The translations under genes were made by a program, and so were the position numbers. Positions 1 through 18,933 of a stretch of DNA of 23,288 nt are shown one piece after another (positions within the stretch are counted from its first letter, which is position 1; every line of letters begins with the position of its first letter). The notes beneath the pieces are model-generated. The model ran no database searches. It was given only the letters and a program-made list of their open reading frames with translations, and was not told the origin of the DNA. This stretch comes from a virus: IMG/VR virus record IMGVR_UViG_3300050821_001035, positions 1 to 23,288 of that record. One strand, written 5' to 3'.

Positions 1-2810
1 TTTTCGGTTTCGACGGCATGATCGTCTGCCTCCATCACGGCCCGTTCGTGGGCGATGTCGGGTTCCAGTCTTTGTCTGTCCATCAGTTCGCGCATTCTGG
101 CGGCGATGGATGGTTCTATTTCGTTCCGCTTGATACCGACTTCTTGCAGATAATCGGCTATGCGGGAATCGAGTTCCGCTTGTTCCGCTCTGTGTTGTTC
201 CAGTTCGGCGGCATCGGGCACGCGCTCGCGGGCTTCCTGTGGCTCAACACCTTGGCGGTAAACTTTGGTGCCACGTTCCTCGCGGTCCATCGCCTGCAAC
301 AGCGTGTCGATGTTGGACGTGGCCTCGCCTGTACTCACGCCGCTTTGTCCGTGATCCTGGATATACCCCGCTTCAACCGCCGCCTCGCGGGCGCGGTCTA
401 ACTCCATGCCGTCTTTGCGAATCAGTGGGCCAAATCCGGGAATCCACTTCTGATCTTTGCCGAAGATCGTTCGCACGTCGCCGATGTTTTTGTCGTCGGC
501 TTTTATTCCGCCGCGGTCGGCGATGAATTGCAGGAGCGACCAGTGTTCTTGCGGCACAGCGCGCGGGCCGCGTGCGGCTTTAGGAGCGACGTGGATTGTG
601 GTAATTTCGGACTCGGGGATTTCCTCTGCCGGTTTTGTTGCTTCAAGTAGAGGCGCCGTGGCCTCTTTGAAACTCACCGGCTTGTCGCCGACCAGCCCCT
701 TGTGAGCCTCGGCATTATAACTCTTGCTGATTCCGTTGGCGTCCGGCTTGGCAATCAGCGTGAATGTGCCATCGGAGTTTTTCGACGTGATGAGCAGGTC
801 TTTGACAAATCCCACATCCACGACATTGCCGGGTGTCCATTCCTGTGAGCGTCGCAAATGGATCGGTGCACCGAGTTTGGTTGTTAGTGCGTTATAGCCG
901 GTCTCTATGACAGCCCGCGATGTTCGTTCGGCCCGCGCGGCGACAAAGGCGTTCCATTGCTCAGCGGGGGCACGTTCCGCCAACGGAACCGGCGCGGCGG
1001 TCGGAGCAGGTGCTACGGTCGGCGGCTCTGCCGGTCCACCCGGCCCGCGAATCTGGGCACCCTCGGCCTTGTAAAGTTCCTCCGCGCTGCCGCGCGCCCC
1101 ACCAAGCCTTACGGCTCTTGCCTCGTACCGCGCGGCGACAAGCTGCCCCGCCGCCTGCGCTTCTGCCTCTGACCGCCCCGCCGCGATCAACTGGTGCTTG
1201 ACATCGTTGACGATGAAATCGCGCTGCGCCTCGATTGGCTTGATGACCTGTTCGGGTGCAACGGTCGGCTTGTTCTCCGATTTGTGATGCCCAATCGCAG
1301 CCTCCGGGTCGATGTGCATCTGTCCGGGCGGCGGATTCGTATTCGGCTCATGCTCGATCCGATCAAGGTATCCGTCCATTTCATGTGTATAGCCCGGCCA
1401 TGACACGCCATCGGCTTCGACCGCGGCGCGTTCCGCTGGCGTCGCAATCTTCGGATGAGCCACGTCGTTGTAGTATTTGGTCGTTTCCTCCTGCGTCGGT
1501 ACTCGGCCTTCCCTTGCGATAAACTCCGCTTTCCACTTCGCCATCGCCTCAGATTCCGCGGTCTCATGCACGACGAGATACTTGTGCAGATTCGCCGGAT
1601 TGCCGTCTTTATCTTTGAGTGTCGGCGAGAATTCTGGAATGTTATGATCGACGACAACCGTTCCGTCTGCGGTCGAATTTGCGCCCGAGAGAACGGTATG
1701 CGTTGCGTCGATCTTCGCTGGCGCTCCGGTCACTTCCGGCGGCGGAAACATCCCCCACGATTGCGACACAGGCGGCGGCACTGTTGCGGCGTTCGTAGTT
1801 TCCGCCGCTTGCTGATACGCCGCCTTGACCTGTGGCGAGAGTTCGTCGAGTTCCTTGTTCACGCCGTCGAGATAAGCCTTCACACCAGGTTCGGGCTGCC
1901 CTTGCGCCTCGCGTTCGGTAAGCCATTTTTGCAAACCGTCCTGTTGCTGCTTCAACGTGTCGTAGCGCGCAAAGACATCGGGCGCGGCTTGGCGCGCTGC
2001 CGTGTGGATGTCGGGCGCAATATCCTCAGGACTCGGCGTGACTGCGGCAGGCGGCGGCGTCCTTGGTGACGGTTGTTCCGATTTTCCCGCTACCGGCTGC
2101 GGCGCGGTCTCAATCTTGACCGGTTCGCCCTTTGGCGCTTCGACTGGCGCCGTACCGGCCCAACCGCGCTCGCCGGCACCTATCACGCGCATCTGCCGCG
2201 CCGTCTCAATCAATCCCGGCGAATTACGATAGGCTTCGCTAAGACCAAGGCCAGGTATCGGCACTCCACTGACCGGCCCATGCAACCCGGTAGGGAAGGC
2301 TTCCGGCAAAGCGGCAATTTCGCGGGCAATATTTGGTGCCCCAACTTCCTCACCTAATTGTTGGACAACGGCCTGACCGCCGCGAAACATTCCTGGCAGG
2401 CCGCGCCTGATTACAGCATCGAGCGCGACCGCCGCCGGCCGCAACAGGACTTCGTTCGCGGTCTTAACGAGGCTCGATTGGCCCTTTTGATAATCGTTGA
2501 AGATGCCAATCTTTTTCAGATAATCGGTACTTTCATCGGACAATCCCAACCGATCAGTGCCCCACCCTTGCTCGAATCCCTGCCCGAACGAATCCAATAT
2601 CCGCGCAACCGGATTTACCGTCTTGTCGCCGAAGATTAAATCCTGCACGGGCGAGTGAGAAACCCCATAATTCTTTGCCTTCCTGTCCGCCTCGACCGAA
2701 GCCGGGAACAGCGAATCAACATCCTGCGCCCCACCCTTCTCCGGGAACAGCGCGTCCACGTCCTGCGGGGCAGGCGCGGCGGCAGGCTGTTGTGGTTGAA
2801 CATCCTGCAT
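1..2810 (-). CDS. Very large multidomain internal/ejection protein (partial, C-terminus outside window)
   Basis: An uninterrupted frame runs from ATG at 2810 off the window at 1, giving 936 residues with no stop. The start overlaps the upstream stop as TGATG, which suggests coupled translation. Residues 16-23 and 29-36 are a tandem repeat (QDVDALFP, QDVDSLFP). Residues 220-365 are rich in Pro, Ala and Gln. Residues 366-510 carry DHNIPEF, HETAE at 415-419, a downstream YxxxAH, and ERAAVEADGVSW, which resembles a protease-like domain I associate with large phage proteins; HExxE could hold a metal, but activity is unproven. Residues 756-850 (HWSLLQFIADRGG, PGFG, GMELDRAREAAVEAGY) resemble a module of large polyvalent phage proteins. 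The tail after 860 is charged and probably helical. Position after the lysozyme-bearing protein, at the end of an ejection gene block, fits a protein injected with the DNA. Exact function is unknown. Confidence 0.85.
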   Translation of the reverse strand, partial: MQDVQPQQPAAAPAPQDVDALFPEKGGAQDVDSLFPASVEADRKAKNYGVSHSPVQDLIFGDKTVNPVARILDSFGQGFEQGWGTDRLGLSDESTDYLKKIGIFNDYQKGQSSLVKTANEVLLRPAAVALDAVIRRGLPGMFRGGQAVVQQLGEEVGAPNIAREIAALPEAFPTGLHGPVSGVPIPGLGLSEAYRNSPGLIETARQMRVIGAGERGWAGTAPVEAPKGEPVKIETAPQPVAGKSEQPSPRTPPPAAVTPSPEDIAPDIHTAARQAAPDVFARYDTLKQQQDGLQKWLTEREAQGQPEPGVKAYLDGVNKELDELSPQVKAAYQQAAETTNAATVPPPVSQSWGMFPPPEVTGAPAKIDATHTVLSGANSTADGTVVVDHNIPEFSPTLKDKDGNPANLHKYLVVHETAESEAMAKWKAEFIAREGRVPTQEETTKYYNDVAHPKIATPAERAAVEADGVSWPGYTHEMDGYLDRIEHEPNTNPPPGQMHIDPEAAIGHHKSENKPTVAPEQVIKPIEAQRDFIVNDVKHQLIAAGRSEAEAQAAGQLVAARYEARAVRLGGARGSAEELYKAEGAQIRGPGGPAEPPTVAPAPTAAPVPLAERAPAEQWNAFVAARAERTSRAVIETGYNALTTKLGAPIHLRRSQEWTPGNVVDVGFVKDLLITSKNSDGTFTLIAKPDANGISKSYNAEAHKGLVGDKPVSFKEATAPLLEATKPAEEIPESEITTIHVAPKAARGPRAVPQEHWSLLQFIADRGGIKADDKNIGDVRTIFGKDQKWIPGFGPLIRKDGMELDRAREAAVEAGYIQDHGQSGVSTGEATSNIDTLLQAMDREERGTKVYRQGVEPQEARERVPDAAELEQHRAEQAELDSRIADYLQEVGIKRNEIEPSIAARMRELMDRQRLEPDIAHERAVMEADDHAVETE

Positions 2811-5026
2811 CACTGGCTCATCGGCACGGTTGGCATCGCAGGCGCGGGCGGCTTGCGTGTCGCCCAGCCCTTCGCAATAGCGGTCGCATCGGCGGTCGCC
2901 TTATCGACATTTCCGGCACGATAAGCAGCAACCAAATCCTCAAGCGATTTGACTTTGCTCACGTCGAAAGTCTCGGGCGATGCTTGATCGGTAATGATGT
3001 CGGCATACCATTGGTCCGGCGGTCGCCTAAAACCCGCGATTGCATTACCGAGATAGTCCTTGCTTGTAGGATTGAATAGTTCCGGCGCCGTCTTGCCAGC
3101 CTTGCGCTGTGCGTCATACTGCGGCAGCACTTGCGCCAGAAACTTCAAATAAATTTCGTCGCCCTTTGGGTCTTTGATGTGGAGCCCTTCGTCAGTCCCC
3201 GTGATCTGCGCTCGCGCATTCTTCAAAAACTGCGCTTTCATTTCTGATTCGGCGACGCCTTCCGGGGATTTGCGCGCCTGGATTTCCGTATTCAATTTAT
3301 CGACGCCGGCAACGGTCAAATCGCCTTGCGGCCCAACATGGCCGTAAAGCTGCGAACCATCCGTCACGCGATTAGGATCGCCTTCGGGCAGATGAATGCG
3401 GCGGTACATATCGTAGAAACCAGCGCCATAGGTGCGCTCAGTCTTCTCCGTCCCCGTCGCCTTCTCCAATTGATCCGTCATCCTCTTCTTGGCTTCGACC
3501 GTGAGCGGCAACTTATCGATCATATCCATCGTCACCGATGGTTTGTCGGAGTGGATATTCTTGAACACTTCCCATTCGGTTGCATCGGATGTTTCTTTTT
3601 GTTGCTTGGCCTGTAGAGCGTCGGCGCGCTCCTGCATGGCGGTCTTTGAGAGGATATTTTGTTCGACGGCCTTTTGTAGCTCAGGGCGATTCTCAAAAGA
3701 TGGATCGGTTCGCACGCGCTGAATCAACGACGCCACATCGGGTTTTGGAACACCCTGCGCATCCTGCCGGCCAAACCACTCGGCTTCGCGATTGCGCCTA
3801 TCTGCAATCGACTGATCGAATTTTCCATTGACCTGATTATATTGCTTGAATAGCTCCTGCGCCTTCATCAAATCGCCGCCGCGGATCGCATCGCCTAGAC
3901 CGGACGTTGTCCATTTCGTTCCTGTATTGAAAGTCAGTGACGTAAGCGCGGCGCGTGTGCCAGGATCAAGGTGAGGATTTACCGAATCCACTGTAGCAGC
4001 AGCTTCCGTCACCTTATCTTCAAATCGTCCTTCGAGAGTGAACCTGTCGGCTTTTTCATCCGGCCCCGATGCTGGCGTGCCATATCCCACACTCCAATGA
4101 TTCACATCCCAATACGGCTTGTCTTTGTAACCCTCGGATTGTTTTAGCCCGGCAACAAAACTTGGATTGAGGCCCGCGACCGAACCGCTGATATAATAAT
4201 TCGAGAGTCTATCGACTGTGCGATTGAAAACTTTCGTATTCAATTCTTTGGAAATTATCAGACGACTGGCAGGATCAATCTCATCGCTATAGCGATGATA
4301 AATAGCGACCGCGTGAGTGAGTGCGTCCGGATCGTTCTGATTTGTTGCTGCGGTTTCGACCCAATTCTTAACCGCACTTCCGCGATACTTCGAGACTTCC
4401 ACATCCAATGTCTGCGGATCGTAGCCCATTGGATCGAAATAATTGTGGGCTTCCTTCCCGATGGTATCCATCTGCTCATCGAGTTTATTGAAATCACCCG
4501 TTTGGATCGCGAGACCGCCAATGTTCGAAGCCGCAGTAACGTTATCCGCCGCCGTCTTTGTTGCCCACGCGGTATGCTGCGCATCGGCGTGATGTGTAGC
4601 CGCCCCGACCAGCCAATCCATCGTGCGCCGCGTGTTACCGGCGACGAGAGCCTTTGTAGGGAGATTTCCGGCCTGCGATTCAGCTTGCGTTTGTAGATCG
4701 CCTATCTTCTTTTTCAGGTCCGGGAGAGCATCGAGTGCCGCCCGCCCCTGCAACTCGGAATGCTTCGATACAAGATCGCCAGCTTGATCGGAAAACCACG
4801 AATGCAATTCGCTGGCGTGAATCTGGTTGTTGTATTCGTTCTGCTGAGTGACATAGGCTAGACCAGTGTCCGCCGCCTTGACCAATCCTTCGCCGGTCTG
4901 TTTCAGGGCTTCCGCGCCATACGCGCCGAACATATTGGGCGATGACGGAATGCGCTCATAATCGTCGGACGGAGCGCCCGAGGGATTTATTTCAGGAAAG
5001 TCTACATTGAGAATTTGACCGGCCAT
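2810..5026 (-). CDS. Internal virion/DNA-ejection protein with embedded GH24-type lysozyme domain (738 aa)
   Basis: The long flanks are helical and hydrophilic, with a central muramidase-like domain at about residues 287-420. There, KQSEGY supplies a candidate catalytic Glu298; Asp307 lies nine residues later, as in T4 lysozyme. WSVGYGT follows, placing Ser312 near the usual Thr, with the loop one residue shorter. LTSLTFNTGT (361-370) and RRNREAEWF (410-418) match the family's conserved core and C-terminal helix. In T7-type phages, the ejected internal proteins carry a peptidoglycan-cutting domain that opens the cell wall for the ejection channel; this protein probably does the same. The start at 5026 lies 3 nt after the previous stop. 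It is followed by the large multidomain protein at 2810 in TGATG overlap. A free lysis endolysin is unlikely given the 738-aa length and structural context. Confidence 0.85.
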   Translation of the reverse strand: MAGQILNVDFPEINPSGAPSDDYERIPSSPNMFGAYGAEALKQTGEGLVKAADTGLAYVTQQNEYNNQIHASELHSWFSDQAGDLVSKHSELQGRAALDALPDLKKKIGDLQTQAESQAGNLPTKALVAGNTRRTMDWLVGAATHHADAQHTAWATKTAADNVTAASNIGGLAIQTGDFNKLDEQMDTIGKEAHNYFDPMGYDPQTLDVEVSKYRGSAVKNWVETAATNQNDPDALTHAVAIYHRYSDEIDPASRLIISKELNTKVFNRTVDRLSNYYISGSVAGLNPSFVAGLKQSEGYKDKPYWDVNHWSVGYGTPASGPDEKADRFTLEGRFEDKVTEAAATVDSVNPHLDPGTRAALTSLTFNTGTKWTTSGLGDAIRGGDLMKAQELFKQYNQVNGKFDQSIADRRNREAEWFGRQDAQGVPKPDVASLIQRVRTDPSFENRPELQKAVEQNILSKTAMQERADALQAKQQKETSDATEWEVFKNIHSDKPSVTMDMIDKLPLTVEAKKRMTDQLEKATGTEKTERTYGAGFYDMYRRIHLPEGDPNRVTDGSQLYGHVGPQGDLTVAGVDKLNTEIQARKSPEGVAESEMKAQFLKNARAQITGTDEGLHIKDPKGDEIYLKFLAQVLPQYDAQRKAGKTAPELFNPTSKDYLGNAIAGFRRPPDQWYADIITDQASPETFDVSKVKSLEDLVAAYRAGNVDKATADATAIAKGWATRKPPAPAMPTVPMSQ

Positions 5027-5029
5027 GAC

Positions 5030-5473
5030 TCACGATTCGATTGCTATACCGCGGAACGCACAAGGGACAGGTGTATTATCCCCAATAGTTCTCACTAGAA
5101 CATTTCGGCTGCGAATTGCCTGCATTTCCATATGTTGTCTAACCTCTAGCGTGGTTTCAAATTTAATCATTTTCACAACATCAAGCCCCCAGCGTTCCGG
5201 GGCAATTCTCAATTTTTGCGGCGGCAATTTAATAACGCTTCTCGCCATCATCGCAAAAACATCTGGCGGCTCAGCGCCTTCAAGACCAGAACAATCAATC
5301 CGGTCTATGGTGCGCCATACATCCCCATCTTTCTCTTTCAAAAAGATTTGTTGTCGCAACCAATGTCCGGAAAAGCCGGGGCGTAGCGACATTAGGCTTG
5401 ATGCTGACACGACAGATGAAGCAAGCAAACCTGCCGCCGCGCCGATGAAAAAACTGCGCCTATTTAGGTTCAT
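5030..5473 (-). CDS. Tat-type signal peptide fused to a major-capsid C-terminal-like segment (147 aa)
   Basis: The N-terminus MNLNRRSFFIG has the twin-arginine pattern RRxFF, followed by a weakly hydrophobic Gly/Ala stretch and a plausible VVSA cut site at 24/25. From residue 53 the chain aligns with major capsid residues 228-330 of the same phage: WR..(I/V).R(I/M), then PPDVFAMMARSVIKLP against PPDIFAIMSKSVVRLP (10 of 16 identical), MEMQAIRSRNVLVR against MDIQAIRDKNVLLR, and FRGIAI against FRNIAI. The first 227 capsid residues are missing, so it cannot form a normal shell subunit. An in-frame TTG at 5479 is an alternative start. Local base composition is lower in GC than its neighbours (about 43% by hand count in 5161-5220). 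It sits among ejection genes, not head genes. Its role is unknown; export of a capsid-like domain is an inference. Confidence 0.85.
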   Translation of the reverse strand: MNLNRRSFFIGAAAGLLASSVVSASSLMSLRPGFSGHWLRQQIFLKEKDGDVWRTIDRIDCSGLEGAEPPDVFAMMARSVIKLPPQKLRIAPERWGLDVVKMIKFETTLEVRQHMEMQAIRSRNVLVRTIGDNTPVPCAFRGIAIES

Positions 5474-5475
5474 GG

Positions 5476-6000
5476 TCAACCCGTCGCCATTGCTTTACCG
5501 AAGTTGCCGCCAACGCTCGATGCCGAGCCCAGGAAATTTCCGAGTGCGGAGATTGGCGCCGCAGTCGCGGCCTGATCCGACTCCGACGTGAGCAATTGGG
5601 ATTCCGCCGTGTCGCTCGTCGCCGCAACCGTGTCGGAATATGCCTTCTTGGCCGCGTTGGAGCGAATCGTCATCGCGTCAAGCGCGCCGAGTTCGCTTTC
5701 TGCCGCGCGTACTTTGGGAGCGGAGCCGGTATTCACGTCAACCCCGGACGCCCCTTGCTGCGCCAAGGTCTTGCCGACCGCCGCGCGTGTCTTGAGTCCC
5801 TGATTCGACGCCGCGATCTCCCCCGACTGCGTGTCCATCGCAGCGTTTTTCATAGCGATGGTTGCATTATTGGCCGCGACTTGCGCTTGGTAGGCCGCAT
5901 TCTTGGAAGCCGCCTCCATCGATCCGTAAGTGCCGGCCGCAGACAATCCGGCGCCCGCGACGCCCGCGACCAACATAACCGGAAGAAGTGCCGCACCCAT
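5476..6000 (-). CDS. T7 gp14-like internal virion protein (174 aa)
   Basis: A hydrophobic Gly/Ala-rich N-terminus (GAALLPVMLVAGVAGAGLSAAGTYG) precedes a long Ala/Gln/Asn-rich helical region. The core contains GASGVDVNTGSAPKVRAAE and LGALDAMTIRSNAAKKAY, which match internal virion proteins of the T7 gp14 type across podoviruses. In T7, gp14 is ejected first and forms a pore in the outer membrane for the ejectosome. The order gp13-like, gp14-like, gp16-like follows T7. ATG at 6000 is preferred over the in-frame TTG at 6015, because GAGGA abuts that TTG with no spacing. The 80 bases between this gene and the preceding one (6001-6080) hold no gene and no convincing promoter or terminator. Confidence 0.8.
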   Translation of the reverse strand: MGAALLPVMLVAGVAGAGLSAAGTYGSMEAASKNAAYQAQVAANNATIAMKNAAMDTQSGEIAASNQGLKTRAAVGKTLAQQGASGVDVNTGSAPKVRAAESELGALDAMTIRSNAAKKAYSDTVAATSDTAESQLLTSESDQAATAAPISALGNFLGSASSVGGNFGKAMATG

Positions 6001-6080
6001 GATCTTTTTTCTCAATCCTCTATGGCCGTAAGACTCTCACAGAATAATCGCACGCCAAGGTAGCCAGTCTAACCAATTGC

Positions 6081-12413: not shown

Positions 12414-12680
12414 TCAGTCCTTTCCATACCAGCGTTCGCCGCGGGGTTTCTTGCTTTTCGCCGATAACGCCAGCCCGAGGCGGCCGGCGGCGGCGAGCGA
12501 CTTGTTCTTGCTGTGGCTGTCGCTTTCCATCTGCTCGTGGGTAGAGACGCCATGTTCCTTGGCGCGGCGCGTCTCTCTGCCGGGATGTTTGATCGCGCCC
12601 TTGATCCAGTGTTTCTTCGCCACGGCCTTAGCTCCCGGCACCATCCGTCTTGCCATGTCGGCGAGCGTTAACGAGGCCAT
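12414..12680 (-). CDS. KHPG-type small basic protein with capsid-like N-terminus (88 aa)
   Basis: Residues 1-18 (MASLTLADMARRMVPGAK) match major capsid residues 1-18 (MASLTLADVGRRMDPGGK) at 14 of 18 positions, but with different synonymous codons. Residues 25-72 (WIKGAIKHPGRETRRA, later SLAAAGRLGLALS) resemble small basic KHPG proteins that are common in phage structural clusters and have no known function. The C-terminus is ERWYGKD, and its codons contain the AAGGA ribosome site for the next gene. ATG 12680 overlaps the preceding TAA by one base. The capsid-like start suggests binding to the shell or scaffold, which is inference. Confidence 0.75.
   Translation of the reverse strand: MASLTLADMARRMVPGAKAVAKKHWIKGAIKHPGRETRRAKEHGVSTHEQMESDSHSKNKSLAAAGRLGLALSAKSKKPRGERWYGKD
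12423..12436 (-). repeat. 14-bp direct repeat, copy 2
   Basis: AACGCTGGTATGGA (minus strand) encodes most of the RWYG motif at the end of the 88-aa protein. An identical copy lies at 12683-12696 at the end of the preceding gene. Being identical at DNA level, it may reflect recent duplication or a shared translation-coupling role. Confidence 0.7.
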
Positions 12681-12870: not shown

Positions 12871-13803
12871 CTAGAAATTCCACCCATTGGTCGCGCTGCG
12901 CATATTGGCGAGCATGGCTTGATAGGATGAGTTGAGATCGGCGGGCCAGATACCGGCTTCGCAGACGAAACCACCAGCAAGTATTGGCCCCTGACCGCCA
13001 GACCTTCCGACAATAGCTTCGGTAGAGGCCATTGCAGAGGTTCCAAACGTTGCTGTGCTTGTGTTTGCGCTGCTATCGGCAGCAAATAAAGGGGCTGTCG
13101 CGCTAACCACCGCCAGCAACGCATGAAAAGCACTATCAGTTGCAGTTAATGTACTGGCTGTCCCAGACACAGCGCTTACCTGATTTGCCACCGCCGGAAA
13201 CCGAAGGATGTTAAGATTTCCATTGTTTTGTATATTTTGAAGAGTCGTAAATCCGCTACCGCGCTCGGTTACTGCTGTCATCGTAAATGGTGCGGCTTGC
13301 GTTATATTTCCGGCTGTGACTAAGCGCGGACTATTCGCTCCACCCGCCGCGCACGGCAATCCATTCTGTGCATTGAACGTCAGCGCCGGCATATTGGCGA
13401 GCGTCGCCTGTACCACATGATTGCCGGTGCCGGTCTGGTCGTACATCTTCGTGACGCTGCACGCGGCGTGGCAGGCTTGCCCAACGCCGGTCAGTTCGTT
13501 GACGTTTACAAAGCCGGTAGAGAGAAAGTGCATCGTTCCCGTGACAAGACCTGTAGCGGTATCGACTACGTCGCAAGCGGCATTAAGGCCGCTTGCATAG
13601 GCTGCGTTGTAAGCTCGACTACAGGAATAGAATGCGATGGCGCCTGACGTGATGTCGCCGGGGCCAACATATGCGGCTGCCGCAGAGGATGGCGGACTAC
13701 AAAATCCAGCCTGACAGCCGTTGAACTGCGCCCGCGGCGCGTTGAACGCGAACAGCGAGAGTGCCGCCGTCAGCCAAACCGCAAGAGCGACACGCCACAT
13801 CAT
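12871..13803 (-). CDS. Exported arabinofuranosidase-B-like adhesin (310 aa, Sec signal peptide)
   Basis: Residues 1-25 form a signal peptide: Arg4, a hydrophobic core VALAVWLTAALSLFAF and a cut site APRA before Gln26. The mature chain has 8 cysteines. SGAIAFYSCSRAYNAAYASG followed by SVTKMYDQTGTGNHVVQAT (YDQTGTGNH at 121-129) resembles the beta-sandwich catalytic domain of alpha-L-arabinofuranosidase B, a fold that phages often use in putative receptor-binding proteins. I cannot confirm catalytic residues. The start ATGATG overlaps the preceding TGA by 4 bases. It is the last of four consecutive exported genes. A tail fibre, a cell-surface coat or a sugar-active protein are the main options. 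Confidence 0.8.
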   Translation of the reverse strand: MMWRVALAVWLTAALSLFAFNAPRAQFNGCQAGFCSPPSSAAAAYVGPGDITSGAIAFYSCSRAYNAAYASGLNAACDVVDTATGLVTGTMHFLSTGFVNVNELTGVGQACHAACSVTKMYDQTGTGNHVVQATLANMPALTFNAQNGLPCAAGGANSPRLVTAGNITQAAPFTMTAVTERGSGFTTLQNIQNNGNLNILRFPAVANQVSAVSGTASTLTATDSAFHALLAVVSATAPLFAADSSANTSTATFGTSAMASTEAIVGRSGGQGPILAGGFVCEAGIWPADLNSSYQAMLANMRSATNGWNF

Positions 13804-14315
13804 GTGAGATCGTTCCCGACGACATAGAAATCGCACGTCGCCGCACTGCCCGTTCCGGTCGTAAGCGAGAGGTAAACCGAGTTAACGGTTTGTCGCGTCG
13901 TCGCGATGTTGGCCGCGAGCGTCAGTCCTAAAACGACAGTCGCGCCGGTTAGCGCCGTATAAGCCTGCGCCGCAGCGACCAGCGCCGTTCCGGCTTTGCT
14001 CGTCGCGGGATAGACGCCGCCAGCCGCTAGAGTGAACGTGCCGGAACAATTCGTCACAATGATCGAGGTCGGCACCCAGGCCGTAACTGAGGCCGGGATC
14101 GCACATGATTGATCTGTCGTGATGTTGAAATTCGCGGCGCGGATCGAGCAGAGAATTCGATTGACGCCGGTATGAAGATTCGTGACCTGACACGACGTAT
14201 TGAGATCGCCGTTGCATGGCGAGATCGTACCACCGCTGCCGAACTGCGCTTGACTCGGCGAAACAAGCGACGATGACAGCAGAAGTGCGGCGAGCGTTCT
14301 TTTGAAGCGGCCCAT
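13800..14315 (-). CDS. Exported cysteine-containing beta protein (171 aa, Sec signal peptide)
   Basis: MGRFKRTLAALLLSSSLVSPSQA is a clear signal peptide (Arg3, Lys5, Arg6, then a hydrophobic core, then SQA cut before Gln24). The mature chain has 6 cysteines. The C-terminal half (FTLAAGGVYPATSKAG, LVAAAQAYTALTGATVV and SVYLSLTTGTG) looks like a compact beta-sandwich seen in small phage structural proteins of unknown function. ATG 14315 lies two bases past the previous stop. In-frame GTG codons upstream (to 14333) would add residues before the signal peptide and are not favoured. Function is unknown; grouping with the other exported adhesin-like proteins suggests a shared surface role. Confidence 0.75.
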   Translation of the reverse strand: MGRFKRTLAALLLSSSLVSPSQAQFGSGGTISPCNGDLNTSCQVTNLHTGVNRILCSIRAANFNITTDQSCAIPASVTAWVPTSIIVTNCSGTFTLAAGGVYPATSKAGTALVAAAQAYTALTGATVVLGLTLAANIATTRQTVNSVYLSLTTGTGSAATCDFYVVGNDLT

Positions 14316-14317
14316 GG

Positions 14318-15208
14318 CTACCACCACGTGCACGTAAACTTATGGCTGGTCGTCGCCGCGATCACTGACAGCGCGTGATTGAGGCCGAAGCCCGGTGGCG
14401 CCGTGAACGAGCCAAATCCGGCAAAGGTCGTCGCGGTCGCGGCGGGCAGCGGATAGCTGCCCGCGCCGGACGCCGCAGCCGTTGTCGTGAATGAAATCCA
14501 CAGCGGCTCAGTCGTATCGATGTTGGCGATGGTAAAGCCATGCAACGTCGTCTGCGCCGTGAAGGCATTTTGAGCGCCACCGCCCGACGTAATTGTACCG
14601 GAGCAATCCGTCGCGGTAACATTCGCCGCACCGTTGGCGGTCACGGTCCCGCTGACGGTAGTGCCACCGAGCGCGGTGGAAATCCGCTGCGCAATGCGTT
14701 GCAGCAGCGCGTTGAGCGAGCACGATCCGGTATCGGTCGCGCACGCCGTCGCGCCGGGAGGTCCCAGATCAGTGTTGGTCGTGGCGACTGAGGTATCAAG
14801 TGCAAAGCCGGTGATCGCAGGCGGCGGTGTCAAGGTGGAAAGCTGCGCCGCGGTCAGCACCACAGGCACAGAAGCAGCCGCAAGTTGCTGGCCCAGCGTG
14901 TAAGGCCAAAATGTCCCGCTTACCGGAAACGTCGCACCGGTCGCGGGAAAGACCCATAGGGGATTTGTCAGGCTCGGTGCGGCGCCAAGAATTTGTGTGA
15001 GATTGACGTTCTGCGTGCCGCTTGGTGTGAACGTTGCGCCCGTACACAGGTTACCATTTACATCAACGGTGAATGGCCCTGGATTTGTGGCTTTAAATGC
15101 CGTGGGGACAGTGCCGCAGGTCGTTACGACAAGCCCCGTAGTGTTTTGCGCAACAACAGGCAAAACGCTAAGCAAGAGCCCGAGCCCAGCAAACAAAATC
15201 CTGCGCAT
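14318..15208 (-). CDS. Exported adhesin/head-spike-like beta protein (296 aa, Sec signal peptide)
   Basis: The start MRRILFAGLGLLLSVLPVVA is a short, textbook signal peptide, cut before Gln21. The mature chain has 6 cysteines and is rich in Thr, Ala and Gly. The N-terminal part contains FKATNPGPFTVDVNGNLCTG; a helical stretch SLNALLQRIAQRIS may trimerise; the C-terminal domain (HGFTIANIDTTEPLWISF, later FTAPPGFGLNHALSV) resembles small beta domains found in phage decoration or spike proteins. GGAG lies ten bases before ATG 15208. The frame is open upstream to 15538 on this strand, but that extension is a shadow of the 437-aa gene. Function is not known. Confidence 0.78.
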   Translation of the reverse strand: MRRILFAGLGLLLSVLPVVAQNTTGLVVTTCGTVPTAFKATNPGPFTVDVNGNLCTGATFTPSGTQNVNLTQILGAAPSLTNPLWVFPATGATFPVSGTFWPYTLGQQLAAASVPVVLTAAQLSTLTPPPAITGFALDTSVATTNTDLGPPGATACATDTGSCSLNALLQRIAQRISTALGGTTVSGTVTANGAANVTATDCSGTITSGGGAQNAFTAQTTLHGFTIANIDTTEPLWISFTTTAAASGAGSYPLPAATATTFAGFGSFTAPPGFGLNHALSVIAATTSHKFTCTWW

Positions 15209-15240
15209 GGCGCTATCGCTCCAATGCTTTCGCTTAACGC

Positions 15241-16554
15241 TCACAATTCCGCCGACGCATTGATATTGAACGCCTGCGCATCGCCGATCAATTGCGATGG
15301 AACGGTAATCGCAATGTTCGATGTCGGCGTGCATGTCACCGAAATCATCCCGCCCGGCTGTGGAACGGTCGAACTCGTTGTCACTGCAAGCGCCGTACAG
15401 ACGTTCGCAGCACCGTTCGCCGCCGTGATCGCAAAGGCCGTATTCGAGCCGGGAGCAGTGATCGTCGGCGCGGCGCGCATCGTAACCGGCAACGGCACGA
15501 GGCACACGGCAGCGGAATTCGCCGTAATAACCTGGCACGTCCCGACCGAAGCCGTCGCCGCCGGATCGTTCAACTGATAATAGTACGTTAACTGCAACAG
15601 CCTCTCTTCGCTCGCTGCCCGGCGTAAGAAAGCCTTGGCGCGCGTATCGTTGACTCCCAAGATCGCGCCGGCAGTCCCGGCAACCGACGTAAGGCTCGCA
15701 TTCGGAACAACTTGCGCTCCGGTAAATTCAAAGCCGTCCGTAGAACCTCCGGTTCCTACCGGCGTATAGCAGATCGCCACCATGATTTCGGTTGAGGTCG
15801 CCGGAATCGGCACGACGACGCCATATCTGGCCCACGTCGTAGTGATCGGAATCAGATAGCCCGTGGTGCCCCCGGCCACGACCGGACCTGTCCACGGAGT
15901 CGAAGAACCGCCGCCCGCGTTGATGCTGAATGCGCCGTTGGCAGTTCCTTCATCGGTTCCCGTTCCCGTGATTACATAAACCGCAAGATTCTTGGAAGCC
16001 GCCGAAAACCCCGCAAGCGCTTTCGCGTGAAAGTCAAATTCAGTCGCCAATCCTTGAAAGCGATAGCTATTCTGGGTCGTAATCTCCTGTCCAACACAGA
16101 CTTGGACAACGCCCGCACCGGATGCTTTCGTGACCTTGAAACTCTTGCCGTAATTCTGGGGCGCATCGGTCGCGCTCGCCACCGTCACTGGCGTATTCGT
16201 GCCACCCCATGCCACCCAGCGATCCGCCGTGTAAGCAACAGCCGCGGGGGTCGCGAGCACAACGGACGAACCGCGTTGGAACAAATTTGTGGTGGCGTCC
16301 CCACCGACCAAAGCATTCTCGGCATTACCACCGGGCGTCGCCTGTGAGTAATTTGCCAGTGTTGCGCTGGTGACAAAACACGAGACCGTGCAAGGATAAC
16401 CGAGCGATATTTGCTCAGTGCCCGCGAGATTTATGATCTGCGCCATCCCTTGACTGACGGCGCGCTGTACCGGCCCGATAGTCCCAACCATCGCCAGGAA
16501 CACACAACCCAAAGCGCAGAGCGCCGCAACACGGAAGCGAGAAAGGAATTTCAT
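15241..16554 (-). CDS. Tail-fibre-type jelly-roll protein with Sec signal peptide (437 aa)
   Basis: The first 38 residues have Lys2, Arg6 and Arg8, a hydrophobic core at 9-27, and possible cut sites at GMA before Gln39 or AVS before Gln35. If uncut, the core could be a membrane anchor. The body has the hallmarks of a phage tail-fibre carbohydrate-binding jelly roll: NLFQRGSS at 90-97, YTADRW at 108-113, and near the C-terminal third SEERLLQLTYYYQL, the usual Glu-rich then Tyr-rich helix before the last beta domain. Predicted mature chain has 8 cysteines. It is the first of four consecutive exported genes. A tail fibre made in the cytoplasm would not need a signal peptide, so this protein may act on the cell surface or be assembled outside the cytoplasm. 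Confidence 0.82.
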   Translation of the reverse strand: MKFLSRFRVAALCALGCVFLAMVGTIGPVQRAVSQGMAQIINLAGTEQISLGYPCTVSCFVTSATLANYSQATPGGNAENALVGGDATTNLFQRGSSVVLATPAAVAYTADRWVAWGGTNTPVTVASATDAPQNYGKSFKVTKASGAGVVQVCVGQEITTQNSYRFQGLATEFDFHAKALAGFSAASKNLAVYVITGTGTDEGTANGAFSINAGGGSSTPWTGPVVAGGTTGYLIPITTTWARYGVVVPIPATSTEIMVAICYTPVGTGGSTDGFEFTGAQVVPNASLTSVAGTAGAILGVNDTRAKAFLRRAASEERLLQLTYYYQLNDPAATASVGTCQVITANSAAVCLVPLPVTMRAAPTITAPGSNTAFAITAANGAANVCTALAVTTSSTVPQPGGMISVTCTPTSNIAITVPSQLIGDAQAFNINASAEL

Positions 16555-17898: not shown

Positions 17899-18933
17899 TT
17901 AGACCACGCGGCTTTCGGTATCGAGAATCTGATCGACCACACCGATTGCGATATTGCGGAAATTCACAATCGGACGGCCGGCGTAATCCTCGGGCCGAAG
18001 CAGCACGTTCTTATCCCGGATCGCCTGGATGTCCATGTACTCCCGCGCGGTACGGTCGCAGTAGAATTTCAGGCGGATCGAAGGAGCGACGCGATCCGGT
18101 GCGTCGGTCTTGACGATGCCGGAAACCATCCGCCCTGCCGTCGGCAGACGAACAACCGACTTCGACATGATCGCAAAGATGTCCGGGGGAGTAGGACCAG
18201 CAAGCCCTGCGGTCGTGGTATCGAAGTTCGCCATGCGAATCACATAGCGCCAGTCCTCGATAGCGAGACCGCCGTTACGCGAGAAGTAGGACGTATAGGC
18301 TTCGTACCGGGCCGTGCCGTTCGATGTGAACGCCGGGACAACATCACCTTTGTTCTCGAAGATCAGCCCGGCTTTCGTACCATCCGGGTAAATCTCGTAA
18401 ACCGTCTGGTCGCCCCAGCCGATGAGCCAGATCGAGGTATTTGAGGAACCAGTTCCCCCAGCGTCGAACACATTGACGCCGTTCGGTGTATTGGCGATTG
18501 CGGAGAAGTAGGTTGAAAAACCGGAGAACTGTTCGGGAGTGGTCCAAGCATTTCCATAAACGAGGAAGCCAGTCCACTGCTGGGACATGCCCTCCATGTG
18601 GGCCACGTCCTCTTTCTCGCGGTTGGCGTTGGTGTTTCCACCAAGATCGGCGAGTCTTTTGTCGATCTGCGAATAGGCGTCCAGCATCGCCATGCCGAAC
18701 GTGATCTGCGCAGCCGAGGATTTGGTGTAGCCGACGCCTTGATTGAAGCGTCGAAGAGTGCCCTTCGGCAGAGCGGTTCGGAGCGTGGCAACGTGGCCGG
18801 TTGTGAGATTGCCTTTTACGAGCGGGGCATCCTCGTCGATCTCGTTGCATTGAGACATCAGTTCGGCCATGTCGGCGATTTTGCCGCCAGGGTCCATGCG
18901 ACGGCCGACATCGGCCAGGGTCAAGGAAGCCAT
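17899..18933 (-). CDS. Major capsid protein, BPP-1-like HK97-fold (344 aa)
   Basis: The protein matches BPP-1/GP7-type major capsid proteins: SLTLADVGRRMDPGGKIA at the N-terminus, then MAELMSQCNEI, LVKGNLTTGHVATLRTALP, FNQGVGYTKSSAAQIT and KRLADLGGN, with AHMEGMSQQWTGFLVYGNA in the middle. Near the C-terminus come DIQAIRDKNVLL and FRNIAIGVVDQILDTE. It forms the icosahedral shell. Two parts are reused elsewhere in the window: the first 18 residues by the 88-aa protein at 12414-12680, and residues 228-330 by the 147-aa protein at 5030-5473. The ribosome site is weak and lies in an imperfect hairpin. It lies between the scaffold and cement genes as expected. Confidence 0.93.
   Translation of the reverse strand: MASLTLADVGRRMDPGGKIADMAELMSQCNEIDEDAPLVKGNLTTGHVATLRTALPKGTLRRFNQGVGYTKSSAAQITFGMAMLDAYSQIDKRLADLGGNTNANREKEDVAHMEGMSQQWTGFLVYGNAWTTPEQFSGFSTYFSAIANTPNGVNVFDAGGTGSSNTSIWLIGWGDQTVYEIYPDGTKAGLIFENKGDVVPAFTSNGTARYEAYTSYFSRNGGLAIEDWRYVIRMANFDTTTAGLAGPTPPDIFAIMSKSVVRLPTAGRMVSGIVKTDAPDRVAPSIRLKFYCDRTAREYMDIQAIRDKNVLLRPEDYAGRPIVNFRNIAIGVVDQILDTESRVV

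Follow-up and report, generated by a model that had tools for sequence, protein, structure and literature searches.

A phage gene that joins a Tat-type leader to a capsid-like segment, and a class of phage leader proteins whose passengers resemble head proteins

The gene P0001 and its two parts

The window, the whole 23,288-nucleotide stretch of viral DNA that was analysed, contains at 5030 to 5473 a gene for a 147-residue protein, P0001. The earlier note had reported an open reading frame (ORF) between these positions; the coordinates hold, but the gene lies on the minus strand and runs from 5473 to 5030, and a plus-strand reading is ruled out by 8 stop codons. The ATG is 2 nt past the stop of the upstream gene and the stop 3 nt ahead of the ATG of the downstream gene, all within the late gene cluster. 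The features referred to below are the following.

5030..5473, minus: P0001, whole ORF, 147 aa (ATG at 5473, stop 5030-5032)
5402..5473, minus: Tat-type leader, residues 1-24 (RR, then a hydrophobic stretch, and V-S-A ahead of the putative cut 24/25)
5456-5461, minus: RR of the leader, residues 5-6 (from the sequence)
5390..5398, minus: SLM motif, residues 26-28, just past the putative cut, common to the phage leaders
5039..5356, minus: capsid-like segment, residues 40-145 (BLASTP, profile, AlphaFold2, VIA-align)
5039-5317, minus: part of P0001 matched by BLASTP, residues 53-145
5476..6015, minus: upstream neighbour, internal virion protein (phrog_418; PHROGs match E 7e-17)
2810..5026, minus: downstream neighbour, 738 aa, containing a phage lysozyme domain (PF00959, E 1.9e-12)
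17899..18933, minus: major capsid protein (MCP), 344 aa, imitated by P0001 (Pfam GP7 PF20911, E 1.9e-91; PDB 3j4u, E 2.2e-59)
17944..18252, minus: MCP residues 228-330, the part matched by P0001 (BLASTP)

The base composition of P0001 is foreign, with a GC content of 0.477 against 0.572 for the window and a GC3 of 0.44 against 0.70 for the MCP. No match was found in PHROGs at E 1 or in Pfam at E 10 (TAT_signal included), and no relative among GenBank phages at E 1. The same phages gave no relative of P0005 at E 10; when compared with the relative P0004 they gave 24 records at E 1-8, which are capsids of known phages and chance matches.

The N-terminus of P0001, MNLNRRSFFIGAAAGLLASSVVSASSLMSLR, has the shape of a Tat signal, as the earlier note had proposed from MNLNRRSFFIG, and leader profile A4 searched against the window matched 5390-5473 with an E value of 3.7e-5. 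The layout is that of a Tat substrate, the twin arginine being followed by a hydrophobic stretch and a putative signal-peptidase site; the cut (24/25) was placed by eye. The NCBIfam Tat model TIGR02811 matched at E 0.1, which is sub-threshold.

BLASTP aligned residues 53-145 of P0001 with residues 228-330 of the phage's own MCP at E 2e-14, with 38 of 106 positions identical (36%), 57 of 106 similar and 16 gap columns, and a second search gave 43% for residues 61-145. The likeness is thus far beyond chance. The capsid profile match on which the earlier note had made its proposal depend is present as well, P0001 matching a profile of 90 MCPs at E 3.7e-8. The alignment reported in that note is therefore borne out, and BLASTP and the leader profile support its idea of a Tat-type leader in front of a capsid-derived segment; its "long near-identical blocks" were overstated, as identity is scattered and the longest identical run is 4 residues (QAIR).

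In the MCP of BPP-1 (3j4u), the beta-element is reported to comprise residues 169-241, with the alpha-element after it (PMC3863775). Mapped through the 3j4u alignment, this border lies close to window MCP residue 238, so the part that P0001 imitates, residues ~209-330, takes in the last portion of the beta-element and the greater part of the alpha-element. By the BLASTP and profile matches P0001 is homologous to the GP7 alpha-element. Residues 40-145 correspond to the terminal part of the beta-element together with the alpha-element in GP7-type MCPs (PF20911; BPP-1 3j4u, epsilon15 gp7 3j40, Carin1 8cjz), and the PPD-F and QAIR-NVL motifs are largely kept. On the other hand, the whole GP7 fold of N-, beta- and alpha-elements is absent, since P0001 aligns only to ~209-330 of the 344 MCP residues; it lacks the N-element, the complete beta-element and the C-terminal tail, has a Tat-type leader, and is less than a whole capsid subunit. 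The relative P0004 matched PF20911 at E 4.5e-5, below the curated cut-off.

We modelled P0001 with AlphaFold2 using an alignment (A5) in which 56 capsid C-termini were combined with P0001 and its relative P0003. The predicted order of elements is hairpin, helix, strand, helix, hairpin, with block pLDDT values of 89-92 over residues 41-80 and 85-88 over residues 101-120 (mean 72). A run on a four-row alignment, with a mean pLDDT of 48, was set aside. The top three VIA-align matches of the model were GP7-family capsids (3j4u, Z 6.8, rmsd 9.6; 8cjz, Z 5.5; 3j40, Z 4.8), which we count only as agreement because a capsid alignment went into the model and a Z under 8 is weak. Foldseek of the model against the PDB gave no match at E <= 0.001 and no capsid among the best 50 rows.

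Accessory distribution and the leader class

The second record of the same phage (G001) carries the P0001 gene at the same place. At this site the gene is absent from two very close relatives, G003 (MCP 100% identical) and G004 (MCP 99%), in which the internal virion gene directly adjoins the lysozyme gene; P0001 is therefore dispensable. The only other full-length homologue found, in L004, has 40-41% identity, keeps the RR, the hydrophobic stretch and SLM, and is located behind the portal gene. G004 has a Tat-leader ORF between two terminase ORFs that matches capsid residues 282-330 (61% over 49 aa), an identical copy of which occurs in two further contigs. Shorter versions of a leader with a capsid piece are present in G023 and G044; in G043 the leader is joined to another capsid piece, approximately residues 209-237 (profile E 5e-7), and in G049 to a possible N-terminal capsid piece whose match is not significant (E 0.075). 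Across 71 records in or linked to the capsid clade, the leader profile detected something in 13 at E 0.1, and 10 of the 13 are short leader ORFs as judged from ORF lengths and positions, G000 and G001 being one phage. P0001 is thus an accessory gene whose position is variable or moving.

The same fusion, which the earlier note had suggested seeking in related phages, does recur there, in the L004 homologue and in the leader ORF of G004 with its capsid piece. Homologues lacking the RR and hydrophobic segment, which that note had set against its reading, are a mixed case: the L004 protein keeps these features, but leaderless short capsid-like ORFs exist, for example in L016 and L119. Short leaderless ORFs resembling pieces of GP7-type MCPs were seen at L016:5247-5681, L119:4548-4913, L012:12928-13158 and L120:2420-2818 and in L173 and L195, some of this set with a permuted segment order. 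Their occurrence in related phages indicates that the leader is not always needed.

The large terminase of G004 (L076:4092-6640) and of the relatives seen consists of separate ORFs for the ATPase and the nuclease, and the gap in G004 holds two Tat-leader ORFs, one of them the ORF with the capsid piece. An intron was considered as the cause of the interruption and dropped, as the two-ORF split is general in the relatives seen.

The phage leaders share the motif APA[IV]VxAx[ST]LM. We searched IMG/VR with a DNA pattern for its 11 residues in which third codon positions were left free and found it in at least 124 places in at least 120 stretches. The RR, which is not part of the pattern, lies upstream in frame in 120 of the 124 places listed. 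Among the 111 distinct leader proteins in the matches listed, synonymous positions vary almost freely and the Arg and Ser codon families mix, showing that conservation acts on the leader protein and not on the DNA. In these listed matches the RR-to-Ala spacing is 19-20 in 100 of the 111 proteins, and the free position before the cut (-2) is R or K in 104 of them. The leader is the most conserved part of the class proteins; the curated Tat model PF10518 of Pfam matched 23 of 106 members at E <= 0.05. Five leader proteins that run off their contigs were left out of alignment A3.

When the leader profile was compared with nine bacterial genomes, host proteins were detected in five (three Reyranella, one Rhizobium and one Alphaproteobacteria MAG), with the match ending at the cleavage region. 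Candidate ORFs found by the motif were present at 5 of 12 host loci, and all four that were scanned are TctC transporter receptors. These Alphaproteobacteria Tat substrates have the RR, the hydrophobic stretch and the cleavage region in common with the phage leaders, but the phage passenger is a head-protein piece and the phage leaders add SLM past the cut. Since the host matches end before SLM, the phage leader resembles a host-type Tat signal with a phage-specific SLM. Judged from these sequence features, the leader very probably works as a Tat signal in the class.

P0001 has the properties that define the class, an RR leader with SLM past the cut and a passenger resembling the MCP of its own phage. 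Its own leader is divergent within the class, the cleavage region reading ASSVVSASSLM where the class has APAIVRASSLM. Position -2 is Ser, so that P0001 lacks the basic residue found before the cut in Tat substrates of Alphaproteobacteria. Such a residue serves Sec avoidance and is common in Tat substrates, but it is not obligatory, and the P0001 leader probably acts as a Tat signal too. The class is large, the same leader preceding imitations of capsid or portal pieces from several capsid families, and P0001 is one of its divergent members; we are highly confident of the two-module make-up of P0001 and of the existence of the class.

Of 35 leader ORFs, 13 are on the other strand from the MCP, so co-expression with the head genes is not required. 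The GC of the class (median -0.009, p 0.058) is not significantly low, and low GC was dropped as a mark of the whole class. No model covering the class was found in Pfam, PHROGs or NCBIfam, the last tried on nine proteins only; phrog_11563, of unknown function in PHROGs, matches 3 of 106 members. GenBank phages gave nothing convincing for class members L193, L232 and L268, and for L253 gave the MCP of Bradyrhizobium phage ppBjS10J-1 (E 3e-3), the other matches being chance (E 0.2-0.4). The open-access literature listed nothing on Tat signals in phages, on Tat leaders joined to pieces of capsid, or on decoys made from capsid protein. The class is widespread and apparently undescribed in that literature and in the domain libraries searched.

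Passengers and head proteins

In an own-contig test, each of 49 passengers was compared with every ORF of 150 aa or more in its contig, and the expectation was taken from other contigs. The test used 40 of 44 contigs, 38 of them whole and two (G126, G129) to base 60,000, and 49 of 55 leader places, leaving out four in contigs G115, G121, G125 and G130 and the weak places G112:26812 and G142:6721; 28 of the 40 contigs have an identified MCP of the families listed below. Own-contig matches of at least 28 bits were found for 16 of the 49 passengers, with 0.97 expected, and at 32 bits for 11, with 0.56 expected. The 14 distinct targets at 28 bits are 12 MCPs, from six PHROG families (283, 212, 1357, 9953, 267, 371), and two portal/connector proteins, one a portal (PHROG 16240) and one annotated "head-tail adaptor" (PHROG 332), which we take to be a podoviral portal. 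A further target, reached at 26 bits, is again a major head protein. As a control, 1,196 leaderless gene-like ORFs of 60-220 aa from the same contigs gave 22 own-contig matches at 28 bits, none of them to a target in the MCP or portal sets; by eye, these 22 include end repeats, tandem copies and fibre-like repeats. In this test the passengers of the class show a preference for head proteins.

With MCP and portal profiles at E 0.01, 24 of the 49 passengers matched and none of the 1,196 leaderless small ORFs did. In a larger set of 108 passengers (the 111 leader proteins minus three with passengers shorter than 25 aa), 37 matched, 34 of them MCP and three portal profiles, compared with 0 of 1,080 shuffles; the other 71 had no MCP or portal match at this level. 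The profile counts are not independent of the own-contig test, as the profiles were chosen from its targets, and the unbiased tests are the own-contig comparison of the passengers and its control with leaderless ORFs.

The capsid-like pieces are often only 20-45 residues long. Of the 34 MCP-like passengers, 26 start within the first 60 positions of the MCP profile, so P0001, with its C-terminal element, is of a rarer kind. Two separate segments of one MCP profile were found in four of the 108 passengers at i-E <= 0.5, three of them permuted, and in two, both permuted, at i-E <= 0.05; none of the 1,080 shuffles had two segments at either level. In L281, MCP positions 363-400 precede positions 100-141 (5.7e-9 and 4.2e-6). 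In G102 and G129, neighbouring leader ORFs carry N-terminal and C-terminal capsid pieces. Passenger pN/pS, available for five pairs only, was 0.51 when pooled.

General libraries recognised less of the class: PHROGs at E 0.01 assigned its members (106 searched) to three major-head families, one member each, to one head-tail adaptor and one virion structural protein family, and to tail families with up to two members each. Pfam at E 0.05 gave tail collar (2) and DUF7483 (2) for the same 106, while GP7, P22 coat, head-tail connector, a pectate-lyase fold and some others were matched once each. The tail matches indicate that pieces of tail proteins also occur as passengers. A Tat leader followed by a phage tail collar domain was noticed at L197:9635-10105 (PF07484) and, by eye, at L303:7761-8150. 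A PRCxxC-GMCxxTGGP motif is common to the passengers of L225:1155-1469, L252:4594-4848 and L270:244-576, whose linkers are quite different.

Possible roles, and other features of the window

P0001 combines a Tat-type signal peptide like those of the host with a passenger imitating a piece of the phage's own MCP, and the host Tat translocase would deliver it to the periplasm. The capsid-like piece may bind a factor, most likely a sensor of host defence, that normally recognises freshly synthesised capsid or portal protein. Tat would then hold this factor or carry it away from the cytoplasm, or the piece itself would block it, and expression of the head genes could then proceed. Such a role would suit Tat, since some Tat substrates take a signal-less partner along: export as heterodimers with one signal peptide is reported for some of them (PMC10924467).

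Among known defences, Avs4 senses the portal and Lit acts with the Gol peptide of the T4 MCP, examples of a portal and of a short MCP peptide as triggers. For CapRel (PMC9712102) and for staphylococcal Thoeris (PMC11312562), the MCP itself is reported to act as the direct trigger, so that hosts watch a protein that is imitated here; these defences themselves are host systems. A decoy for capsid- or portal-sensing host defences is, on sequence grounds, the most likely reading of a Tat-exported head-protein mimic, but a tentative one. It is close to the "periplasmic decoy" of the earlier note, whose capsid piece and Tat-type leader stand, its decoy part being no firmer than this reading. We keep it at this level in view of the divergence of the P0001 leader and of the 71 passengers, out of 108, that MCP and portal profiles do not recognise; the leaderless capsid-like ORFs and the tail pieces also count against it. 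Thoeris is reported to sense hexameric MCP (PMC11312562), which together with pieces of 20-45 residues weighs against a decoy. Binding of a sensor and its removal or blocking, taken jointly, are likewise a tentative proposal. A bolder reading, slightly less probable still, is that phages of Alphaproteobacteria have a general counter-defence device in the form of short "poly-epitope" proteins, with pieces of their own capsid or portal, sometimes permuted, stitched behind a host-type Tat signal; sensors of head proteins would bind the imitation and be blocked or exported through Tat.

The passenger may instead be part of an MCP or portal interface and pair with head subunits that are still unassembled, Tat reading its folding and binding state so that export would depend on whether free subunits are left and would report head assembly to the envelope, for example in the timing of lysis. 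The own-contig targets, the preponderance of pieces from the first 60 capsid positions and the location of P0001 in the late gene cluster are as such a sensor of assembly would have them; the opposite-strand leader ORFs (13 of 35) and the absence of the dispensable gene from very close relatives are not, and we consider this improbable. A similarly low probability attaches to the possibility that the leader is the active part and fragments that do not fold clog or deplete the translocase, with the passenger sequence hardly mattering. The leader is indeed the most conserved part and most passengers (71 of 108) are unrecognised by MCP and portal profiles, but the own-contig focus on MCP and portal/connector proteins would be left unexplained, and by eye related passengers keep capsid-like motifs after different linkers. 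Nor is it probable that a mobile leader has merely picked up functionless fragments of highly expressed head genes by illegitimate recombination. The accessory nature and variable position of P0001, its foreign base composition (both GC and GC3) and the many unrecognised passengers, as expected of old debris, are consistent with this origin. Against it, the leader is conserved as a protein while its codons are free, RR is kept in 120 of the 124 places listed, the own-contig matches fall on MCP and portal/connector proteins, which are a small part of the genome, segments are permuted, and a full-length relative of 40% identity has the same architecture. Even if the proteins were recurrent fusion debris, their preference for MCP and portal would need explaining.

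Two further possibilities place the exported piece in the virion or its entry apparatus. It could wait in the periplasm and decorate virions at lysis, binding through the interface that it imitates. The imitated parts do belong to virion proteins, tail collar pieces included, but portal and N-terminal capsid pieces would have to reach sites that are buried in the known folds, and we regard this as still less probable. The earlier note had also offered a capsid-like ring in the ejection machinery; such a ring, or a membrane anchor, would act with the neighbouring internal virion proteins. Tight spacing between the internal virion gene and the lysozyme-bearing gene fits this idea, which is otherwise unsupported: the gene is missing there in G003 and G004, which are among the closest relatives, and related genes are found in other places, next to the portal gene or in the gap of the split terminase. 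Other head types also have class members, the same leader class carries portal pieces and capsids of other families, and P0001 has no PHROG match at E 1, internal virion families included. An ejection role is thus very improbable.

Ty1 Gag p22, a truncated capsid protein, is a self-restriction factor. It resembles P0001 as a partial capsid protein encoded beside the whole one, but has no export signal and acts on assembly in the cytoplasm. If the class is what it seems to be, its phages, which span several capsid families, encode imitations of their own head-building proteins that are tagged for export, and this would be a new kind of phage gene. The passengers would then reveal the parts of capsid and portal that matter to whatever recognises them, and each phage would offer a testable bait for capsid-sensing defences in Alphaproteobacteria.

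Two other regions of the window were noted. At 12414-12680 (minus strand), a small basic protein starts with MASLTLADMARRM, in which 14 of the first 18 residues are those of the MCP start; the synonymous codons differ from those of the MCP, and such a start is found in four other related phages. Three neighbouring small proteins near this gene share an RWYG/KWYG motif. At 12871-16554 (minus strand) lie four consecutive genes, fibre-like by eye, that seem to start with Sec-type signal peptides, e.g. MRRILFAGLGLLLSVLPVVAQ; similar genes are present in related contigs.
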